Positions 25,001 through 39,509 of a stretch of DNA of 64,000 bases are shown piece after piece. The notes under the pieces were generated by a model. That model saw only the letters and a program-made list of their open reading frames with translations, ran no database searches and had not been told where the DNA came from. The translations under genes were made by a program, and so were the position numbers. Positions within the stretch are counted from its first letter, which is position 1. Each line of letters begins with the position of its first letter. The DNA lies in contig NZ_VISR01000036.1 in assembly GCF_007827595.1 (NCBI RefSeq), positions 1-64,000 on the forward strand, in the 5' to 3' direction. The DNA is from Streptomyces sp. BK340 (lineage in GTDB: Bacteria; Actinomycetota; Actinomycetes; Streptomycetales; Streptomycetaceae).

Positions 25001-25075
25001 ATGACCGTGCTCGTGACCCGTCGCCACGTCGACTACGTGCGTGTCACCGCCACAGGTTGTCGCGCCGTGAGCTGA
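25001..25075 (+). CDS. Leader peptide upstream of metY
   Basis: A 24-codon ORF, ATG 25001 to TGA 25073-25075, ending 128 bases before metY. Its core RRHVDYVRVTATGC aligns residue for residue with two other short ORFs in this window (37960-38037 and 39435-39509): RR, H or A, V/I, D, aromatic or Leu, any, R/H, V, four small residues, then Cys. Short peptides with this signature precede sulfur-assimilation genes in streptomycetes and are thought to act in cis: stalling or slow translation at the cysteine codon reports low cysteine and opens the downstream genes. Here the target would be metY-metX. Conservation is seen; the mechanism is inferred. Confidence 0.75.
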   Translation: MTVLVTRRHVDYVRVTATGCRAVS

Positions 25076-29985: not shown

Positions 29986-30318
29986 TCAGTCGGGGTACTC
30001 GGGCCCGACCGCCATACGAGCGCCGAGTGCCCTTCCCCTGCCCCAGCCGAGTTCGCGGCGATACCCGCCGAGCTGGCCGGACTCCTCGAGCTCCTGCACA
30101 TCGTGGAAACGCGAACCCGGAGCCGCCGCGGTCACCAGCGGCGCGACGAACAGGGCGTCGGTGGGGCAGTACGCCTCGCACTGGAAGCAGGTCTGGCAGT
30201 TGTCGTGCCTCGCGATCACCGGGATACCGTCGGGCCCTCGGTCGAACACGCGCGTCGGGCACACGTCGATGCACAGGTCGCATCCGATGCAGCGGTCCCG
30301 CTCGACGATCTCGATCAT
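29986..30318 (-). CDS. AprB-like ferredoxin with two 4Fe-4S clusters
   Basis: A 110-residue protein with two complete cluster motifs: CIGCDLCIDVCP and CQTCFQCEAYCP. After these there is a tail of about 50 residues, as in the beta subunit of APS reductase, where the tail wraps the alpha subunit. Its ATG overlaps the stop of the AprA-like flavoprotein gene (ATGA), so the two subunits are translationally coupled. It should pass electrons to or from the FAD of that partner. The pairing, motif spacing and tail support an AprBA-like complex; whether it acts on APS, sulfite or another substrate is unknown. Confidence 0.85.
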   Translation of the reverse strand: MIEIVERDRCIGCDLCIDVCPTRVFDRGPDGIPVIARHDNCQTCFQCEAYCPTDALFVAPLVTAAAPGSRFHDVQELEESGQLGGYRRELGWGRGRALGARMAVGPEYPD

Positions 30319-31919
30319 GCGGCTCGACCTCCCGGGACGGTCATCGTCTGCGGCACCGACTCCGGGCGGCTCCAGACCTCGTCCAGGCCACCCGTGAGCA
30401 GCCGGTGGCGCTGGGCCGGATCCTGTGCCGGCCGGTCGATGCGCTTGTGCATGCCGCGCGACTCGGTCCGGTGCAGAGCCGCGTGGTACATCCAGCGGCC
30501 GTGCGCCACCATCGCGGCCGCCTCCCGGGCCCGGAACAGGTCCTCGCCGCTCGCGCCCAGTCCTTCGCGCACCGCGGACCACGTCTCGTGCAAGGAGCTC
30601 AGGGCCGGGCCCAGACGATCCGCGTGGCGCAGGTAGTTGCGGTCGTACGGCAGCACCTGTTGCTGCACGTCGGCGACGACCTCGCGATGGCCGACCCTCG
30701 CGGCTCCGGTCGGACGCAGACCGGCCGTGCCGACCGCCCGCAGCCGGCGGCGGGTACGACCTCGCCGGGTGGCGAACGCGGCGGCTCCCCGGCCCGCCCA
30801 GCTGCCCGAGGCGGCGGCCCATGCGGCGTTGTGGCTGCCGCCTCCGGTGAAGCCGCCGCAGATCAGCTCGCGCGTGGCGGTGTCGCCGGCCGCGTAGAGG
30901 CCCGGTACGTCGGTCGAGCAGTCCGCGCCGGCGATGCGTACCCCGCCCGTGCCGCGCACGGTGCCCTCGGCCAGTAGGGTGATCTCGAACGGGTCGGTGA
31001 ACGGGTTGATGCCCAGCCGGTCGAAGACCAGGAAGGTGTTCGGCTGCCCCTTGCGCATGGCTCGCTGGTCGTCCGGCGTGGCCCGGTCGAAGCGGGCGTA
31101 GACCGGTTCCTCCAGGAGGGCCCGGGCGATCGCGGAGCGGCCGCCCTTGCTGGCCGCGCCTTCGAGCACCGAACCGTCGGCACGGTAGAAGCTCGCCCAC
31201 GAGTAGTAGGCGGTCTTGGTCAGTGACGTGCCCTTGGGAGCGATGGCGTAGGCGTTGGAGAATTCCATCCCGGACAGCCGCGCTCCGGCCTCCACGGCCA
31301 GCAGCGCACCGTCCCCGGTGTTGACGTCACAGCCGAGAGTCTTGGACTGGAACGCGCATCCGCCCGCGGCGAGCACGACCGCTGCCGCCTCGATGCGAAC
31401 GCTCTCACCGGTCGTACGGTCGAGCGCCCGCGCGCCCGACACGACTGCGTCGGCATCGACCAGCAGCTCCAGCGCCGGGGTGTGATCGAGGATACGAACT
31501 CCCAGACGCTGCACCCGAGTTCGCTGTCGGCGCATGTACTCAGGACCCTGGAGGTCGTTGCGTATCTGGCGGCCGTGGGCGTCGACGGGGAAGGGGTAGC
31601 GCTGCACCCGGGCGAGTTCGTCCATGCGGGCGTGGGTCTCGTCGAGGACGCGCGCCATCCAGTCCCGGTCGGCGAGGTAGCCGCCGAGACCCTCGCGGCT
31701 GGCCATGGCGGCCTCCCGCAGCTCTGGGTCGTCGTCGACGTACCAGATGCCGGTGCCCACCGACGCGGTCGCGCCGCTCGCACCGGTGTAGCCCTTGTCG
31801 GCCAGGACGACGTCGGCGCCGGCCTGGGCGGCCTTGATGGCGGCCCAGGTGCCCGCGGGTCCGCCGCCGATCACCAACACGTCGGTGGACAGGGTCTGTT
31901 CGGAATCGGTACTCGTCAT
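30315..31919 (-). CDS. AprA-like FAD-dependent oxidoreductase
   Basis: A 534-residue flavoprotein: DVLVIGGGPAGTWAAIKAAQAGADVVLADKG binds FAD, VLAAGGCAF follows, and GLYAAGDTATRELICGGFTGG and GGSHNAAWAAASG near residue 370 resemble the AprA active-site block with its histidine rather than the HGANRLGG block of succinate dehydrogenase. The helical C-terminal domain (LPYDRNYLRHADRLGPALSSL) is also shared with AprA and fumarate reductases. The AprB-like ferredoxin follows immediately. It lies at the end of an operon led by a polycysteine leader peptide and sulfonate-type transporter, so a redox step on an inorganic or organic sulfur intermediate is likely. Confidence 0.85.
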   Translation of the reverse strand: MTSTDSEQTLSTDVLVIGGGPAGTWAAIKAAQAGADVVLADKGYTGASGATASVGTGIWYVDDDPELREAAMASREGLGGYLADRDWMARVLDETHARMDELARVQRYPFPVDAHGRQIRNDLQGPEYMRRQRTRVQRLGVRILDHTPALELLVDADAVVSGARALDRTTGESVRIEAAAVVLAAGGCAFQSKTLGCDVNTGDGALLAVEAGARLSGMEFSNAYAIAPKGTSLTKTAYYSWASFYRADGSVLEGAASKGGRSAIARALLEEPVYARFDRATPDDQRAMRKGQPNTFLVFDRLGINPFTDPFEITLLAEGTVRGTGGVRIAGADCSTDVPGLYAAGDTATRELICGGFTGGGSHNAAWAAASGSWAGRGAAAFATRRGRTRRRLRAVGTAGLRPTGAARVGHREVVADVQQQVLPYDRNYLRHADRLGPALSSLHETWSAVREGLGASGEDLFRAREAAAMVAHGRWMYHAALHRTESRGMHKRIDRPAQDPAQRHRLLTGGLDEVWSRPESVPQTMTVPGGRAA

Positions 31920-31955: not shown

Positions 31956-32758
31956 TCAGGGCTTGAGACGGCCGGTGGCGAACATGGCGGCGGACCACGC
32001 CGAGAGTGCGGCGGCGAGAGCCCAGACCACGAACAGGGCCCATACGGCGTCCACGTCGCCCCGGCCCAGGAAGCCGATCCGCTCTACCTGGACCAGCCAG
32101 AAGACGGGGTCGATACGGCTCAAGGCGTCCCAGAACGACGGCAGTTGGTGGACCGAGTAGAAGACGCCTCCGAGGAAGCCCAGCGGCAGCAGGACGATCG
32201 ACTCCATGGAGTAGACGTGGTCGAGGGACTTGGCGAGGCTTCCCGCGATCACGCCGACCTGCGCGGCGACCAGGAGGACGCCGAGGGTCCCGAAGAGGAG
32301 GACGAAGGGGCGGGCGACGCTGCCGCTTCCGGTGAGTGGGAGGGCGACCGCCACAACTCCCGCCCCCACGACGGCTCCTCGGGCGATGCCGCCGCTCACC
32401 AGCGCCGCGTTGATCTCCCACCAGCGCAGCGGGCTGGCGAACACGTCGTGGATGTAGCGGTCGCGGCGGGCCTCGAACAGGCTGGTCGTCCCGTTGAAGA
32501 AACCGACGTTGACGATCGCCTGCGCGAACAGACCCGGCACGATGAAGCGGCCGTAGGAGACGCCGTCGATCGTGTCGACGTGCCCGCCGAGGGCCGAGCC
32601 GAAGACGACGACGAACAGCACGGTCGACAGGACCGGGCCGACGACGCTGTAGCGCCAGATGGTCAGGAAGCGCAGGACCTCCCGCTCCAACAGCCACAGG
32701 AACGGCGGCCGTTCGGGCCTGAAGCGCACCTGGTGCGGCGCGCGAGTCGTGGTGTCGG

Positions 32759-32762
<4 letters not shown>
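31956..32762 (-). CDS. ABC-2 type exporter permease
   Basis: A 268-residue membrane protein with about six helices, for example SVVGPVLSTVLFVVVFGSAL, FIVPGLFAQAIVNVGFFNG and ALFVVWALAAALSAWSAAMF. The cytoplasmic loop FEARRDRYIHDVFASPLRWWE is the ABC-2 signature region that contacts the ATPase. Its ATG overlaps the stop of the ATPase gene by 4 bases. ABC-2 systems export drugs, lipids or polysaccharides. Inside this sulfur operon it may expel a toxic intermediate or product; there is no direct clue to the substrate. Confidence 0.9.
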
Positions 32763-33497
<735 letters not shown>

Positions 33498-33514
<17 letters not shown>

Positions 33515-34831
33515 GGAACCGGTTGGCCGGCACCGGCAGCCCGTAGTGCTCGCGCAGGGTCGTGCCTTCGTACTCCTCCCGGAACAGGCCCTTGATGCGC
33601 AGGATCGGCAGGACGTGCTCGATGAAGGACTCCAGACCGGACGGCAGGGCCGGCGCCATGATGTTGAAGCCGTCCGCCGCTCCACCCTCGAACCAGCTGA
33701 TGACGGTGTCCGCCACCTGCTCGGGCGTGCCGATGAACTCGAAGTGGCCGCGCCCTCCGCCGAGCCGCGATATGACCTGCCGTACCGTCAGCTTCTCGCG
33801 GACGGCAAGCTCGATGATCAGGTCGGAGCGGCTCTGCGAGCCCTCCAGCTTGGGCCGGGCGAGGATGAAGTCCGGCAGCGGCGCGTCGAGTTCGAACACG
33901 GTCGGCTCGGTCTCGAAGACCGCCGCCAGCTGGCGCAGCCCGTACTCGGGGATCCGCAGTTCGTCGAACCGCCTGGCCAGCGCCCTGGCCTCCTCCTCCG
34001 TCGACCCGATGTACGGGACGATCCCCGGCAGCACGATCACGCCGTCCGGGTCACGCCCTGCGGCCCTGGTCCTGGCCTTGATGTCGGCGTAGAAGGCGGC
34101 CGCGCGCTCGTACGTCTGATGAGCGGTGAAGATCGCCTCGGCGTGCCGGGCCGCGAAATCCTTGCCGTCCTCGGAGGAGCCGGCCTGGACGACAGCGGGT
34201 AACCCTGCGGCGGGCGCTCGACGTTGAGCGGTCCGGCCACCGAGAAGTACGTGCCCCGGTGGTCGGGCCGGTGGAGCCGGGCAGGGTCGGCATAGCGTCC
34301 CGTCGACTTGTCCGCCACGACGGCCTCGGACTCCCAGCTGTCCCACAGCGCTTTGGCGACGTGCAGGAACTCGTCGGCCCGGGCATAGCGTTCGGCGTGG
34401 TCGGGACGGTTGACGAGGCCGAAGTTGGCCGCCTCGTCGGCGCCCGCCGAGGTGACGATGTTCCAGCCGGCGCGGCCGCCGCTGACGTGGTCGACCGAAG
34501 CGAGGCGGCGGGCGAGGTTGTAGGGCTCGTTGTAGGTCGACGACACGGTGGCGATGAGGCCGATCCTGCTGGTCGCCTGGGAGAGCGCGGTCAGCAGGGT
34601 CAGTGGTTCCAGCTGGCCCGGCGGGCGGAACTCGCCGGTGCCGATGAGCGCTGGGCCGTCGGCGAGGAACAGCGAGTCGAACTTGGCGCTCTCGGCCAAC
34701 TGGGCGAGCCTGATCCAGTGTTGGAGGTCGAAGTCGGCCCGCGGGTTGCTCTCCGGCAGCCGCCACGCCGCCTCGTGGTGGCCCGCCTCCATGAGGAAGG
34801 CGTTGAGGTGAAGCCGGCGTCTCTCGCTCAC
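33498..34831 (-). pseudogene. DszA/SnaA/NtaA-type flavin monooxygenase, one frameshift
   Basis: The N-terminal 220 residues begin at GTG 34831 (overlapping the binding-protein stop) with LHLNAFLMEAGHHEAAWR, then FDSLFLADGPAL and SGGRAGWNIVTSAGADEAANFG, blocks of the NtaA/SnaA/DszA family of FMNH2-dependent monooxygenases. Near 34196 the frame changes; after one added base (ccggctgtc for ccgctgtc) it continues as VVQAGSSEDGKDFAARHAEA to 33498, 444 residues in all. The family includes dibenzothiophene-sulfone, nitrilotriacetate and alkanesulfonate-related enzymes. All flanking genes are intact and coupled, so a missed base is as likely as true loss. Confidence 0.85.
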
Positions 34832-35892
34832 GACTTGACCTCCAGCTTCGAGCTGTCGTAGCCCGCCGGGAGAAGGTTGTCGGTGATCGACGAGACATCG
34901 ATCTTCTTGGTGATCTGGCCCGCCTCCAGGAAGGCGTCGGCGAGCTTCTGCTCCGCCGCGATGTCAAACTTCTCCACCGGGGTCACCCGGGTCTCGAAGG
35001 CCTTCAGGGACGTCTTGGCGTCGGCGAGGGGGATGCCCTCCTCCTTGGAGATGGCCTCCGCGTACTTGTCCTCGTGCTTGATCGCCCAGGCGAACTCGTG
35101 GGCCAGACGCTTGAGTACGTCCGTGAGGGCGGCCCGCTTGGTCTTGTCGTTCAGCGACTTCTCACTGGCGACGTAGTAGCTGCTCGTCTGGTCGATGGGC
35201 GGGAGGCCCTTGGCCAGGATCCGCGCGCCGTTCTTGACCGCGATCGCCGACTGGGGGTTCCAGATGGACCAGGCATCCACCTTGCCGGTGTTGAAGGCGG
35301 TGGCGCCGGCCGCAGGGTCGAGGAAGACCAGCTTCACGTCCTTGGGGGTGAGGCCGACGCTCTTCAGCGCGTTCAGGGCCAGGCCGTGGGCCGAACTGCC
35401 CTGCGGGACGGCGAGTTTCTTGCCCTTGAGGTCCCCCAGCGTCTTCAGCTTCGAGCCCTTGGGCACGATGATGTTCTCGCTGGACTGGGTGGGCGTGAGC
35501 GAGCGGTTGACGGCGACGACCTTGAAGCCGTACTCCTTCGCCGCACCCGTGATCGGCGGTACGTCGCCGACGCTACCCAGGTCGATGTCGCCCGACGCCG
35601 CGGCCTGAACGAGCGGCGGGCCGTAGGTGAAGCGGGCGAACTTCACCTTGTACGGCGCATTGTCGAAGACGCCGGTGATCTTCGCCAGTTCCTGGCTGCC
35701 GTCACCGCCGTTGTCGCCGATGGTGAAGGTGTACTTCTTCCACTCGGGGTGGCTGTCGGCACCGGATCCGCTCGCGTTGCTCAGCGGGGCCGCCGCCTCC
35801 GACTCGGTTCCGCAGGCGGCGAGGGTGCCCACGAGGGCGAGCAGGCCGAGGGCGCCGACGATGCGGGAGGATGTTCCGGGCATGGGTCTCAC
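34828..35892 (-). CDS. Sulfonate-type ABC transporter binding lipoprotein
   Basis: 354 residues from GTG 35892 (ATG 35883 also possible). The signal ends LALVGTLAACG, a lipobox with Cys as the lipidated residue. The mature protein is an SsuA/TauA/NMT1-type binding protein: VKFARFTYGPPLVQAAASGDIDLG, IIVPKGSKLKTLGDLKGKKLAVPQGSSAHGLAL and VDAWSIWNPQSAIAVKNGA. It captures sulfonates or related organosulfur anions outside the membrane. It lies between the ATPase gene and the monooxygenase, as in ssu operons. Stop and next start overlap as GTGA. Confidence 0.92.
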   Translation of the reverse strand: MRPMPGTSSRIVGALGLLALVGTLAACGTESEAAAPLSNASGSGADSHPEWKKYTFTIGDNGGDGSQELAKITGVFDNAPYKVKFARFTYGPPLVQAAASGDIDLGSVGDVPPITGAAKEYGFKVVAVNRSLTPTQSSENIIVPKGSKLKTLGDLKGKKLAVPQGSSAHGLALNALKSVGLTPKDVKLVFLDPAAGATAFNTGKVDAWSIWNPQSAIAVKNGARILAKGLPPIDQTSSYYVASEKSLNDKTKRAALTDVLKRLAHEFAWAIKHEDKYAEAISKEEGIPLADAKTSLKAFETRVTPVEKFDIAAEQKLADAFLEAGQITKKIDVSSITDNLLPAGYDSSKLEVKS

Positions 35893-35952: not shown

Positions 35953-36693
35953 TCAGTGCTGGTTGGCCAGACCGAGGTCTTCCAGGAGCGCGGAGCGGAG
36001 CTCCTCGCGGGCGACGCTCGCCTCGCGATCGGCGGCCGACAGCTCGACGAGGTGGGAGGTGCCGATGCGGCCGTTGCTCATGACGACGACCCGGTCGGCC
36101 AGCGCGATGGCCTCGTCGACGTCGTGGGTGACGAGCAGCATGGCCGCGTGGTGCTTGCTGCGCAGCCCCCGTACGAGGTCGTGCATGCGCAGCCGGGTGA
36201 TCGCGTCCAGTGCCGCGAACGGCTCGTCCAGCAGAACGAGTTCGGGCTCGGAGACCAGCGCCCGGGCCAGCGAGACGCGCTGGGCCTCGCCGCCGGAGAG
36301 CTCCTTGGGCCATGCCTTCTCGCGGCCCGCGAGTCCGACCTCGGCGAGGACGGCGAGGGCGCGCTCGTCCGCATCCGGTCCGTGCAGACCGAGGGTGAGG
36401 TTGCGCAGCACCCGCTGCCACGGCAGCAGCCGGTCGGCCTGGAACACGATGGCACGCTTCGCCGGGACCTCCACCCGCCCGCCGTCGGGCCGGTCGAGAC
36501 CGGCGAGCAGGCGCAGCAGGGTGCTCTTGCCGCAGCCGGAGGGGCCCAGCAGGACCACCAGCTCCTCGTCGGCGATGGTGAGGTCGAGGTGGTCGAGGAC
36601 CACCCGGTCGCCGAAGCGGCGGACGACCTGCTCGACGACGGCTCCGGCCTGCCGGCGCGGGCGCGTCTCCTGCGGGGCGATCGTGGTGCTCAT
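35953..36693 (-). CDS. Sulfonate-type ABC importer ATPase
   Basis: A 246-residue SsuB/TauB-like subunit: Walker [15 protein letters not shown]-loop [12 protein letters not shown], signature [16 protein letters not shown], Walker [15 protein letters not shown], switch [15 protein letters not shown]. The LLPW after the Q-loop is typical of the nitrate/sulfonate/taurine group. The gene overlaps the permease stop by ATGA and precedes the binding protein by 60 bases. It powers uptake of the substrate captured by the lipoprotein. Confidence 0.93.
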
Positions 36694-37577
36694 GCTGCCT
36701 CATAACTGGGGCGCCACCGCAGCAGCACCCGCTCGAGAACCCGGACGAACTGGTCGGCGAGCAGACCGAGGAGCGAGTAGATCACCAGCCCCACGAAGAC
36801 CTGGCCGGTCTGCAGATAGGTCTGTCCCTGGGTGATGAGGAACCCGAGACCCTTGTCGGCGTTGACCGTCTCGGCGGCGACAAGACCCAGGACGCTGTAG
36901 GCGAGGGAGAAGCGCAGGCCCACCAGGAATCCCGGCAGGGCCCCAGGCACCAACACCCGTGTCACCAGGCGCCAGTTGCCCGCCCCGGTGGTCCGCGCCA
37001 TCTCGATCAGCCGCTGGTCGACGCCCCGGATCGCGGCGAACAGGTTGAGGTACATCGGGACACCGGCGCCGAACGAGATCAGCAGCACCTTGGTGAGCTC
37101 GTCGATGCCGAACCACACGATCATCAGCGGCAGTACGGCCAGCAGCGGGATCGTGTTGAGGATCTGCACGACGCCGTTGAAGAGATACTCGCCGCTGCGC
37201 AGCAGCCCGCCGAGCACGCCGCTGACGATGCCCACCGTCAGACCGATCGCGAGGCCGATGCCGGCCCGCTGCAGCGAGATGGCCAAGTCCGGCCCCAGAA
37301 CGCCCTGTTGCCACAGATCGACGGCCGACTTGACGATGGAGGTGGGTGCTGGGGCGTAGGTCTTCTTCAGTACTCCGGCCCTGGCGAGGATCTCCCAGGC
37401 GATGAGGACCACGACGGGAGTCGTGTAGATCCCCAGCGGCCAGCGCAGCCGCTCGCGCAGTGTGTGCAGCGCTGTCCGTCGGCGGGCGTCGCGCGGCAGG
37501 AAGACCTCGCGCCCCGGGGCAGTGCGCGGCTCGGCGGCCGGGACGACCGCCGGTCCCTTGAGGCTGACGTCGGTCAT
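36690..37577 (-). CDS. Sulfonate-type ABC importer permease
   Basis: A 295-residue inner-membrane protein of the SsuC/TauC group with about six helices. The EAA loop, [31 protein letters not shown] region, is present near residue 195 and contacts the ATPase. LGVTGI-like [19 protein letters not shown] follows. ATG 37577 overlaps the stop of the upstream micro-ORF by 4 bases, so its translation is coupled to that ORF. It forms the channel of the importer with the ATPase and lipoprotein encoded next. Confidence 0.92.
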
Positions 37578-37738
37578 GCCGCGTCCTCCAGTTCCAGCAC
37601 GCTGCTGTAGTGCGAGGCGTCGCCGACGGCTTGCTTCGAGTCGGCGAGGGAGCGCAATGGGTCGGGGGGCGCCGTGAGGTCGACACCCTCGGCGACCGCG
37701 CCGATGCGGTTCGTGAGTTTGCGGATGGACGGAGACAT
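37574..37738 (-). CDS. TauD-like micro-ORF coupled to the importer permease
   Basis: A 54-residue ORF from ATG 37738, with gagaggga properly spaced upstream, ending in an ATGA overlap with the permease start. Its first half, RKLTNRIGAVAEGVDLTAP, looks like the opening of TauD-type alpha-ketoglutarate dioxygenases, which oxidise sulfonates. The remainder ([27 protein letters not shown] region) is not TauD-like and lacks the iron-binding HxD. It may be the scar of an in-frame deletion of a taurine dioxygenase kept because it delivers ribosomes to the permease, or a small protein in its own right. Confidence 0.6.
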   Translation of the reverse strand: MSPSIRKLTNRIGAVAEGVDLTAPPDPLRSLADSKQAVGDASHYSSVLELEDAA

Positions 37739-37856
37739 GCGGAGGTCCCTCTCGAGGAGATGGGGCGCTGTGCCGGGTGCCGACAGCCGGGTGAGGGCTC
37801 GGCGAGCACGCCGAGAAAGGTGAATGCCGGATTCAGGTCAAGGACGCGCAGCTTGC

Positions 37857-37886
37857 GGCTGCCGGTGCGTCAGTGCACCGGCAGCC
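37857..37886 (-). promoter_or_regulatory. 12-bp hairpin between leader peptide and operon
   Basis: Perfect 12-base arms ggctgccggtgc (37857-37868) and its complement (37875-37886) close a 6-base loop. The hairpin lies 74 bases after the leader-peptide stop and 119 bases before the micro-ORF start on the same transcript. No U tract follows, so it could be a Rho-type pause site or part of a switch that responds to leader translation. Confidence 0.6.
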
Positions 37887-37959
37887 GGCTGCGCGGACCT
37901 ACCTCTGCCACGGAACCGGAGGCGAGAGGAAAGAAGGAGGACCGGAGGGAGGCGGGTCC

Positions 37960-38037
37960 TCAACAACAACAGAACGCGCTGGAGACGTGCGCCAGGTCGA
38001 TGTGGCGCCGCCGAGTCAAATCCACGCGCGGGGTCAT
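37960..38037 (-). CDS. Polycysteine leader peptide of the sulfonate operon
   Basis: A 25-codon ORF from ATG 38037 to TGA 37960-37962, ending with three consecutive TGT cysteine codons directly before the stop. The core RRHIDLAHVSSAFC aligns without gaps with the leader peptides at 25001 and 39435. The three cysteines at the very end are a classic arrangement for sensing charged Cys-tRNA: ribosomes would stall there when cysteine is scarce and change folding of the downstream RNA. A possible -35 element TTGACC lies at 38070-38075. The ORF stands between the haloperoxidase stop and the operon. Confidence 0.82.
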   Translation of the reverse strand: MTPRVDLTRRRHIDLAHVSSAFCCC

Positions 38038-38127
38038 GGAACGTGAGTTGAGCAGACGTGCGCGCTTTCGGTCAATGAGTTCCGGCCAGGTGTCACATTG
38101 CGGAAACCTGAAACGTCTCAGCGCGGC

Positions 38128-39390
38128 TCACCGGGTGCGGAACAGGCCGGCGGAGTTGCGCAGGGCGTGTGCCGCGACGCGCTTGCCGAGGACGAGGCCG
38201 GCCTCGTCGGCCGAGCGGCTGTGGATGCCGGAGTACACGCGCGCATCCAGGTTGTCCTGCGAGAGCTGGCTCCAGGCCGTGTACGTGCGGGTCACACCCG
38301 GAGCCGTGGGGCTAATCAGCTCGAACGGTGCGGTGCGCGGTCCGGTGAGTGCCGTGAGGACTGTCTCCGCCGCGCCGGCGTAGGTGTTGTGCCCGCTGGG
38401 GTAGTCGGGGTGGGCCGGTGTGACGTGCAACGGCGTCCACTCGGGGGCGGGGTCGATGGCGCCGGATCGGATGGCCGTGACCGGGCGCCACCGCAGGTAG
38501 GCGTATTTGGTGTCGGAGGTGGCGATCTGCGTGTCCACCAGGGCGACGTGGAACAGGGCCACGAGACTGGCCTGTCCGACGGTGGACTGCGGTGCCCGGG
38601 CCAGGGCGACCCGGAGCGGCTCGGTGTACAGGGTCAGGGAGGAGCCGAACCAGAAGACGGCCGTCTCGGTCTGCCGCTGTGTGCGCACGGTGCTGTTCAC
38701 GGCCCCGTAGGCACGGACCTCGGACAGGTCGGCACGGTAGCGCGCGGAGTCCAGGGCGGGCGGTGCGGGCAGCCGGTACTGGTCGGGGGCGTCGAGCAGG
38801 AAGGGCCGGGCGATCCGGTTGCCGTACTGCGCGGCCGGGGCGTAGGCGGGCGGGGTCGGCTGCCACACTCCGGGCGCGGCCGGCGGCACGGTGAACGGCG
38901 CGTTCACCGAGGCCGGGTCGAGGCCGTCCCCCTCACGGGAAGCAAGGACCAGCCGTGCCTGGCGGGCACCAGCCGCCGCGCCCTTCGTCTTGGCCAGGCC
39001 GTCCGGGACGCGGTCCAGCGTCGTGCGCAGCGCGGCGTCCAGTTCCTGGGCGCGGGACGGGACCAGGGCCACCAGGGAGTCGTGTACGGCGGACGCCAGG
39101 GCCGCATCCTGGAACGCGCTCCGGTCGACGCCGGGCGGCACCTCGCGGACGGCGCGGGCCGCTGCGAGCCAACTGATGGCCCAGGTCCGGCTGTTGGTGA
39201 TCTGTGTGGCGGCGCCGGCCGTCGAGATGGTTGCGGCCGTCGTGTCGTACCAGTCGAGCACCGCGGACGGGCGCGACTTGCGTTCGTCCGCAACGGCGCC
39301 CGTGGCGGAGGGGACGGTGCCGGAGGCGGCCAGCAGGGCGGCCGAGCTCAGCGTCTTCAGGGCGGAGCGGCGGGTTCTGAGCGGGTTCAC
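38128..39390 (-). CDS. Vanadium-dependent haloperoxidase, Tat-exported
   Basis: A 420-residue protein from GTG 39390 with aaggag upstream. The N-terminus RTRRSALKTLSSAALLAASG is a twin-arginine signal. The vanadate pocket is recognisable from three blocks: KYAYLRWRP (Lys and Arg), PDYPSGHNTYAGAAETVL (Ser-Gly-His) and ARVYSGIHSRSADEAGLVLGK (Arg and His). This is the PAP2/haloperoxidase fold. Bacterial members halogenate small molecules or act as phosphatases; without structural comparison halide preference cannot be stated. It is preceded by a sulfur-type leader peptide, unexpected for this enzyme. Confidence 0.9.
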   Translation of the reverse strand: MNPLRTRRSALKTLSSAALLAASGTVPSATGAVADERKSRPSAVLDWYDTTAATISTAGAATQITNSRTWAISWLAAARAVREVPPGVDRSAFQDAALASAVHDSLVALVPSRAQELDAALRTTLDRVPDGLAKTKGAAAGARQARLVLASREGDGLDPASVNAPFTVPPAAPGVWQPTPPAYAPAAQYGNRIARPFLLDAPDQYRLPAPPALDSARYRADLSEVRAYGAVNSTVRTQRQTETAVFWFGSSLTLYTEPLRVALARAPQSTVGQASLVALFHVALVDTQIATSDTKYAYLRWRPVTAIRSGAIDPAPEWTPLHVTPAHPDYPSGHNTYAGAAETVLTALTGPRTAPFELISPTAPGVTRTYTAWSQLSQDNLDARVYSGIHSRSADEAGLVLGKRVAAHALRNSAGLFRTR

Positions 39391-39434: not shown

Positions 39435-39509
39435 TCAGCTACACAGCGCCGCGGCGACACGCAACAGATCGACGGCGCGCCGCCGGGTGAGCCGCAGAGA
39501 GATCCGCAT
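39435..39509 (-). CDS. Leader peptide upstream of the haloperoxidase
   Basis: A 24-codon ORF, ATG 39509 to TGA 39435-39437, ending 44 bases before the haloperoxidase start. The core RRAVDLLRVAAALC matches the leader peptides at 25001 and 37960 at RR, V/I-D-L, V and the final Cys, with Ala replacing His. The short distance to the next gene leaves little room for a transcription terminator and fits translational coupling or masking of the aaggag site. It implies control of the haloperoxidase by cysteine or sulfur supply. Confidence 0.7.
   Translation of the reverse strand: MRISLRLTRRRAVDLLRVAAALCS

Follow-up and report, generated by a model that had tools for sequence, protein, structure and literature searches.

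An invariant TGT cysteine codon in a family of actinobacterial leader peptides, and a borderline member ahead of an apparently decaying organosulfur operon in Streptomyces

If a 25-codon open reading frame (ORF) that ends in three cysteine codons, ahead of an organosulfur operon of Streptomyces sp. BK340, senses cysteine, which of its features does the sensing? A sequence-only reading of the window, by which we mean the whole 64,000-nt stretch of DNA analyzed here (contig NZ_VISR01000036.1, positions 1 to 64,000), had proposed that ribosomes stall at the terminal cysteine codons under cysteine starvation, that stalling alters the leader RNA, and that the operon is thereby turned on.

The leader ORF, its family and its orthologs

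The leader ORF occupies positions 37960-38037 on the minus strand, encodes the peptide MTPRVDLTRRRHIDLAHVSSAFCCC in 25 codons, and closes with TGT TGT TGT TGA; the gap between its stop codon and the next gene-like ATG (at 37738) is 221 nt, and both the ORF and its distance from the operon stood as first read. The NCBIfam model NF042934 (‘putative leader peptide’) matched the translated ORF at 27.2 bits (E 2.1e-6 by hmmscan; cut-off 27), and a six-frame search of the genome with the same model scored it at 24.8 bits, below the cut-off, which makes the leader a borderline member by score. The models NF042933 (Ms5788A) and NF042936 (Ms4527A), which we take to be mycobacterial polycysteine leaderless sORF attenuators, matched it more weakly and under their cut-offs. 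With the NF042934 cis_reg_atten family, the window leader shares the core RRHIDLAHVSSAFC, ending in the cysteine of position 19, and its place in front of a gene or operon, as a short ORF in cis 221 nt 5′ of ORF1, and it differs from the family in its borderline score and its three terminal cysteine codons. Given the E-value of the hmmscan match, the start, stop, and TTGACC box kept in orthologs, and an excess of synonymous over nonsynonymous differences, the match is better than chance, and the ORF is, as judged from these comparisons, real and a genuine member of a known leader-peptide family.

The window’s genome, a 10.3-Mb draft in 84 contigs, gave 23 matches in its six-frame search, 14 of which were used; the nine dropped were weak (E of 0.43 or above) and lay in frames of at least 124 aa, and one with a similar E-value (L018) was retained as a free-standing short ORF that carries the motif. 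Thirteen leaders besides the one under study were accepted. Two of these lie inside the window and are the related short ORFs that the sequence-only reading had pointed out: one at 39441-39497 on the minus strand (E 1.6e-5), which carries the core 5′ of a PAP2/haloperoxidase-like gene, and a weaker one at 25007-25048 on the plus strand (E 0.44), which carries it 5′ of an O-acetylhomoserine sulfhydrylase gene. The PAP2/vanadium haloperoxidase-like gene (38128-39390) behind the leader at 39441-39497 sits directly upstream of the 37960-38037 leader.

Orthologs were sought with a 401-base query against 295 genomes of the genus, 69 of which gave matches; strong matches to the leader region (E 9.5e-23 or better) came from 17 other genomes and from contig C21 of the same genome, resulting in a set of 18 leaders. 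The stop was reached in 17 of these, the end of a contig interrupting the other (L084), and all 17 end TGT TGT CG[TC] TGA, that is, Cys-Cys-Arg. One ortholog (L079) reads PID where the others read HID. The window leader carries the conserved cysteine codon of family position 19 at 37969-37971 and its second and third cysteine codons at 37963-37968 (minus strand); since the third of these (37963-37965) is an arginine codon in 17/17 readable orthologs, the third terminal cysteine is private to the window copy. The comparison across Streptomyces genomes therefore upheld the start and stop of the proposed leader and not a set of three conserved terminal cysteines, and the conserved run of cysteine codons that is the trait of the mycobacterial polycysteine leaders is absent. 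Among 15 orthologous leaders, the fraction of pairwise codon comparisons with a synonymous difference was 0.113 and that with a nonsynonymous one 0.038; codons 1-99 of the next gene gave 0.169 and 0.117, respectively (one ortholog alignment took 12 of the 17 sequences, this codon comparison 15).

The start, the stop, and the TTGACC box were conserved in the orthologs whose upstream regions were compared. TTGACC, the putative −35 box (38070-38075, minus strand), starts 37-38 nt 5′ of the ATG in 17/17 aligned upstream sequences (window, C21, and 15 further orthologs). The same 17 sequences show a −10-like T[CG][AG]ACT 8 nt 5′ of the ATG; in the window this putative −10 box is TCAACT (38046-38051, minus strand). 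The spacing of these putative boxes fits a leaderless start of the window-group leaders. A consensus promoter scan of 37600-38200 found none, and the TTGACC box is known from the alignment only. At the level of the family, TANNNT was present 5-9 nt 5′ of an in-frame ATG or GTG in 59/102 leaders, as against 0.2% of 2552 control ATG/GTG codons.

The downstream operon and the genes behind related leaders

The genes behind the leader, all on the minus strand, had been described as an eight-gene organosulfur operon, a description that holds for an SsuABC-like importer: an SsuC-like ABC permease (36690-37577) and an SsuB-like ABC ATPase (35953-36693), both found by profile search under their NCBIfam cut-offs, and an SsuA-family substrate-binding protein (34828-35892) that matches TIGR01728 above cut-off. 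It does not hold for the first ORF (37574-37738), which is what remains (54 aa, in frame) of a TauD-type dioxygenase and whose stop overlaps the permease start; ORF1 is 298 aa in 15 relatives and in the C21 copy, which matches the taurine dioxygenase model under its cut-off. Nor is the NtaA/DmoA-family (DszA/SnaA-like) monooxygenase (33498-34831), identified by profile search, whole, as it lacks one base near 34192 that is present in both intact copies aligned. The remaining genes are a DrrA-like ABC ATPase (32759-33685) and an ABC-2 permease (31956-32894), both from profile searches and both with true starts probably within their ORFs; an AprA-like FAD-binding flavoprotein (30315-31919), a weak match below the AprA model cut-off; and an AprB-like ferredoxin (29986-30318), recognized by the cysteine motifs of its translation. 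Residues ~380-420 of the AprA-like protein form an Ala/Arg-rich stretch resembling the product of a different reading frame, possibly reflecting paired frameshifts or errors.

In the second copy of the operon, on contig C21, TauD and the monooxygenase are both intact. With a TauD remnant, a frameshifted monooxygenase, and an intact copy on another contig, the window operon is by these alignments a partly decayed duplicate, unless its breaks are assembly errors, and the leader, which looks intact, would nonetheless drive it. A second species (G024) has an 86-aa TauD remnant of its own, also in frame; the remnants of the two species (37574-37738 and L068) are of unequal length, and each retains its start and still overlaps the permease gene.

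The family itself is widespread within the class. NF042934 matches were present in 97/148 genomes sampled from the class and in 119/119 genomes sampled from the order (most of them of one genus), where single genomes carried as many as 14; a phylum-wide sample of 149 genomes gave eight matches, all within the same class. Control genomes gave matches in 0/14 cases at E 1e-4 and in 10/14 at E 10, none of the latter over the cut-off.

Of 52 downstream genes prepared, with starts called by script, 30, from 30 genomes of the class, were searched against Pfam. The first genes behind the leaders comprised six of sulfite/nitrite reductase type, six DUF4395 proteins, three rhodaneses, and two each of PAPS reductases, flavin/FMN reductases, SDF symporters, and solute-binding proteins; ThiS, TauD, a luciferase-like monooxygenase, a cysteine dioxygenase, and a POR-type oxidoreductase occurred once each, and two genes had no match. 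By our reading, which counts reductases, rhodaneses, PAPS, ThiS, TauD, and the dioxygenase as the plain sulfur class, the link to sulfur was plain in 14/30, plausible in four, and not clear in 12/30, six of these being DUF4395. The DUF4395 first genes (L123, L124, L127, L129, L135, L147) are thus frequent (6/30), which suggests a sulfur role for this domain of unknown function. Ten first genes in the window’s own genome included six sulfur-type matches, most of them under cut-off, one amino-acid permease, and three with nothing at E 1e-20. The cysteine dioxygenase (Pfam, L175) follows a leader subgroup of the form VRLWRRVHMDLVRYAGC.CRPSC, which has a member in the window’s genome at G000:C15:201315-201371; as a cysteine-degrading enzyme it makes little sense behind a leader that is ‘on when cysteine is scarce’. 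The proposal of a cysteine-responsive leader draws good support from family membership, a conserved cysteine, and the sulfur genes behind many of its relatives.

The cysteine codon at family position 19

The conserved element of the family is one cysteine, spelled TGT in every case seen. Two sets of leaders were compared, the first consisting of 103 leaders, 14 from the window’s genome and 89 that represent 70 further genomes of the class, the latter taken from among the matches listed (29 supplied loci and 60 chosen for genome spread before sequence inspection), and the second of 43 further leaders (16 from the phylum-wide sample and 27 from the order sample). Cysteine stood at model position 19 in 102/103 leaders of the first set, with TGT as its codon in 102/102, and in 42/43 of the second, with TGT in 42/42; across both sets, the codon was TGT in 144/144 leaders that have this cysteine. 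The two of 146 family members that lack it (L011 and L196) form a subgroup, HIDLLRVCSAI, in which codon 19 is TGA in L196 and a serine codon in L011. The NF042934 model reads amino acids only, so codon choice played no part in which leaders the search returned. TGT makes up 75/737 cysteine codons (10%) in gene-like ORFs of the first-set loci, and at the other cysteine positions of the same leaders it accounts for 27/131, most being TGC (at position 12, 2/46), giving an enrichment at position 19 of Fisher p 8e-41. Codons ending in A or T range from 2 to 28% at positions 1-18, as against 100% at position 19, and no other position is locked in this way. Counting from model column 1 up to the stop codon, position 19 is also the sole cysteine of 38/102 leaders, and the orthologs of the window leader have two; a run of cysteine codons, which the sequence-only reading had emphasized, is accordingly not what the family conserves.

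The constraint reaches into the next codon. The base after TGT was C in 104, T in 34, A in five, and G in one leader (both sets), a pyrimidine in 138/144, and ordinary cysteine codons have G next in 284/736. Residue 20 is Arg in 48 leaders, Pro in 16, Cys in 15, Leu in nine, and a stop in five, followed by Gln, Ser, Thr, and Phe; these residues are chemically unlike, yet a first-base pyrimidine is common to most of their codons, and the preference for Arg could explain part of the bias. A pyrimidine 3′ of a codon can weaken its decoding. The tRNA-Cys genes, found at two loci in a scan of part of 75 tRNA matches, carry the anticodon GCA, and no other cysteine anticodon was seen among the loci scanned; UGU would therefore be read by wobble. 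The tRNA carries the A36-A37-A38 motif, which directs isopentenylation, and such tRNA changes affect attenuation; the window’s genome encodes a MiaB match over cut-off. An odd tRNA-like gene of 92 nt, called as Gly, lies beside the second tRNA-Cys gene (L266, 97-281). In the text available to us, inefficient wobble reading of GAU is described for Streptomyces (PMC9262613), thiomethylation at position 37 of Streptomyces tRNA is mentioned (PMC9262613 and PMC12772374), and theory holds that the choice of regulatory codon sets the sensitivity of an attenuator (PMC1183508, in part).

Cysteine codons in leaders have precedents. Cysteine leader peptides were predicted in Mycobacterium, P. acnes, and B. 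longum (Seliverstov 2005; PMC1262725), and the mycobacterial ones were tested by Canestrari 2020, as related in excerpts of PMC9031893 and PMC13236596, with ribosome occupancy reported in the consulted part of PMC4633059 and a further notice in that of PMC9094748. The window leader resembles the mycobacterial polycysteine attenuators in its putative leaderless-type start, its terminal cysteine run, and its sulfur operon, and it departs from them in that its orthologs have two cysteines, many of its relatives have one, and sequestration of the Shine-Dalgarno (SD) site is by folding not a family trait. The leaders of Seliverstov 2005 similarly have cysteine codons near the stop and no conserved terminator, with Rho weakly suggested, and the passages of PMC1262725 available note no codon lock. 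The leader uORFC-8-2, upstream of cysS in Rhodobacterales (PMC8632094, in part), likewise contains two tandem cysteine codons, but UGC dominates there and an intrinsic terminator is present, whereas the present family holds to UGU at position 19 and the window yielded no T-run terminator.

Spacer RNA, candidate mechanism and rival explanations

The RNA between leader and operon (37739-37959, minus strand) is a 221-nt spacer that is pyrimidine-rich at its beginning, in keeping with a family in which spacers have more C than G. Constrained folding covered the 93 of 102 leaders with a usable start 15-350 nt away, the other nine being left aside, and in 86 of the 93 the spacer, from leader stop to ribosome site, was long enough to measure; C exceeded G in 86/86 of these, as compared with 44/101 for the 150 nt 5′ of the leader, and matched regions gave 85/86 for spacers against 38/76 upstream of other genes (p 1e-17). 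RNA that is C-rich and G-poor after the leader, as expected of a Rho-dependent attenuator, is thus present at the level of the family, and it fits Rho loading and also fits plain low structure. The window spacer has the C-rich start and also a strong fold, more stable than all 200 shuffles (z −4.2), which in these folding models speaks against easy Rho loading there; its long GC hairpin (37834-37901, minus strand) has a 13-bp perfect stem, no T-run, and no counterpart among 16 other window-group spacers, which reach at most 7 bp. No terminator-like site with a T-run was found in 37600-38200, no Rfam family matched the window at gathering score, and 102 minimum-energy folds revealed no shared structure around the UGU. 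As the terminator and Rfam searches and a comparison of SD pairing with shuffles in 81 leaders (below) gave nothing, the proposal that stalling alters the leader RNA is not supported as a general RNA switch. The output may perhaps be termination of the Rho type.

Programmed frameshifting and fusion with the downstream gene were considered and rejected, since downstream starts occur in all three frames (36, 32, and 25 of 93). The +1 frame after codon 19 is open for longer than at control starts (median 49 vs. 20 codons), and the −1 frame is not (41.5 vs. 46.5 codons).

The reading that we favor, with moderate confidence, is that of a probably leaderless NF042934 leader on which the ribosome waits at UGU when Cys-tRNA is short, with Rho as the most likely output. 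With ample Cys-tRNA, the ribosome would complete the ORF and leave the C-rich spacer naked, such that few full transcripts would be made, most likely through Rho; with Cys-tRNA short, it would wait at UGU, its front reaching close to the stop codon, and operon expression would follow. Because tRNA-Cys(GCA) reads UGU by wobble, UGU in place of UGC would lengthen the wait, and the invariant TGT in this way hints at how the sensor works. The distance from the conserved cysteine to the stop is 2-4 codons in 80/102 leaders, which would put the front of a stalled ribosome at roughly the edge of the spacer; covering only the first spacer bases, such a ribosome would be poorly placed for a Rho-blocking step, which counts against that part of the scheme. 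It is in these steps of stalling, cysteine response, and Rho action that we infer rather than observe. A more elaborate and tentative version, which we would not expect to hold in full, has a single UGU-pyrimidine as the weakest spelling of cysteine, read by wobble with the conserved nascent peptide in the exit tunnel and Rho access to the C-rich spacer as the readout, and possibly with the sensing of tRNA thiolation as well: given the A36-A37-A38 motif and an encoded MiaB, slow UGU might report lost sulfur modification of the tRNA, a link between tRNA modification and sulfur sensing that we offer as speculation.

Translation attenuation, in which a ribosome stalled on cysteine codons frees an SD site paired with the leader RNA as in M. 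smegmatis, is the manner in which the mycobacterial case is described in the portion of PMC13236596 available. Constrained folding with a ribosome at codon 19 raised SD accessibility at individual loci (0.24 to 0.56 in L090, 0.16 to 0.68 in L010) and the family mean from 0.390 to 0.426 (93 leaders, p 0.002), but this rise is small and indistinguishable from the one obtained when the ribosome is placed on the stop codon (p 0.38), SD pairing with spacer or leader was not above shuffles in duplex energies of 81 leaders, and stalling gave no consistent change in 17 window-group sequences. As three folding tests (17, 93, and 81 sequences) left SD sequestration at single loci only, it was rejected as a family-wide trait, and we regard translation attenuation as unlikely here. 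Classical transcription attenuation through terminator and antiterminator hairpins might draw on the stable fold and long GC hairpin of the window spacer, and Streptomyces leaders without a typical terminator appear in the part of PMC8079986 consulted; yet a GC hairpin followed by a U-tract is missing from 37600-38200 and the hairpin present is private to the window, which renders this explanation very improbable.

Two further alternatives concern the codon and the window copy themselves. A constraint that acts on nucleotides and extends to the next base is also what an RNA or DNA motif (a structure or a protein site) at the TGT would produce, independently of decoding. The third U, however, is unpaired in 39/102 folds, and in the 63 where it pairs the partner may lie as far as 74 nt upstream or 152 nt downstream, while the codons flanking TGT vary synonymously, and we hold such a motif to be quite improbable. 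That the window leader is a relic without present function, in an operon that is decaying, would accord with the TauD remnant, the monooxygenase frameshift, and the confinement of the third cysteine to this copy; against this, the leader, its start, its stop, and its TTGACC box are intact, the importer genes have uninterrupted reading frames of high GC3, and the frameshift could be an error of draft-genome assembly, and so we deem a relic improbable.

Returning to the favored reading of a ribosome waiting at UGU, we met neither a report of UGU as a fixed codon in such leaders nor a description of any codon constraint on this known leader family in the accessible text of the open-licence literature searched. 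The codon lock separates codon-based sensing from RNA-structure models, and it turns the vague notion of a ‘cysteine leader’ into a single-base question, that of a T-to-C change versus sensing. It would represent an unusually strong instance of decoding-based selection at a synonymous base, and the NF042934 leaders may form a cysteine regulon that operates without a protein regulator.
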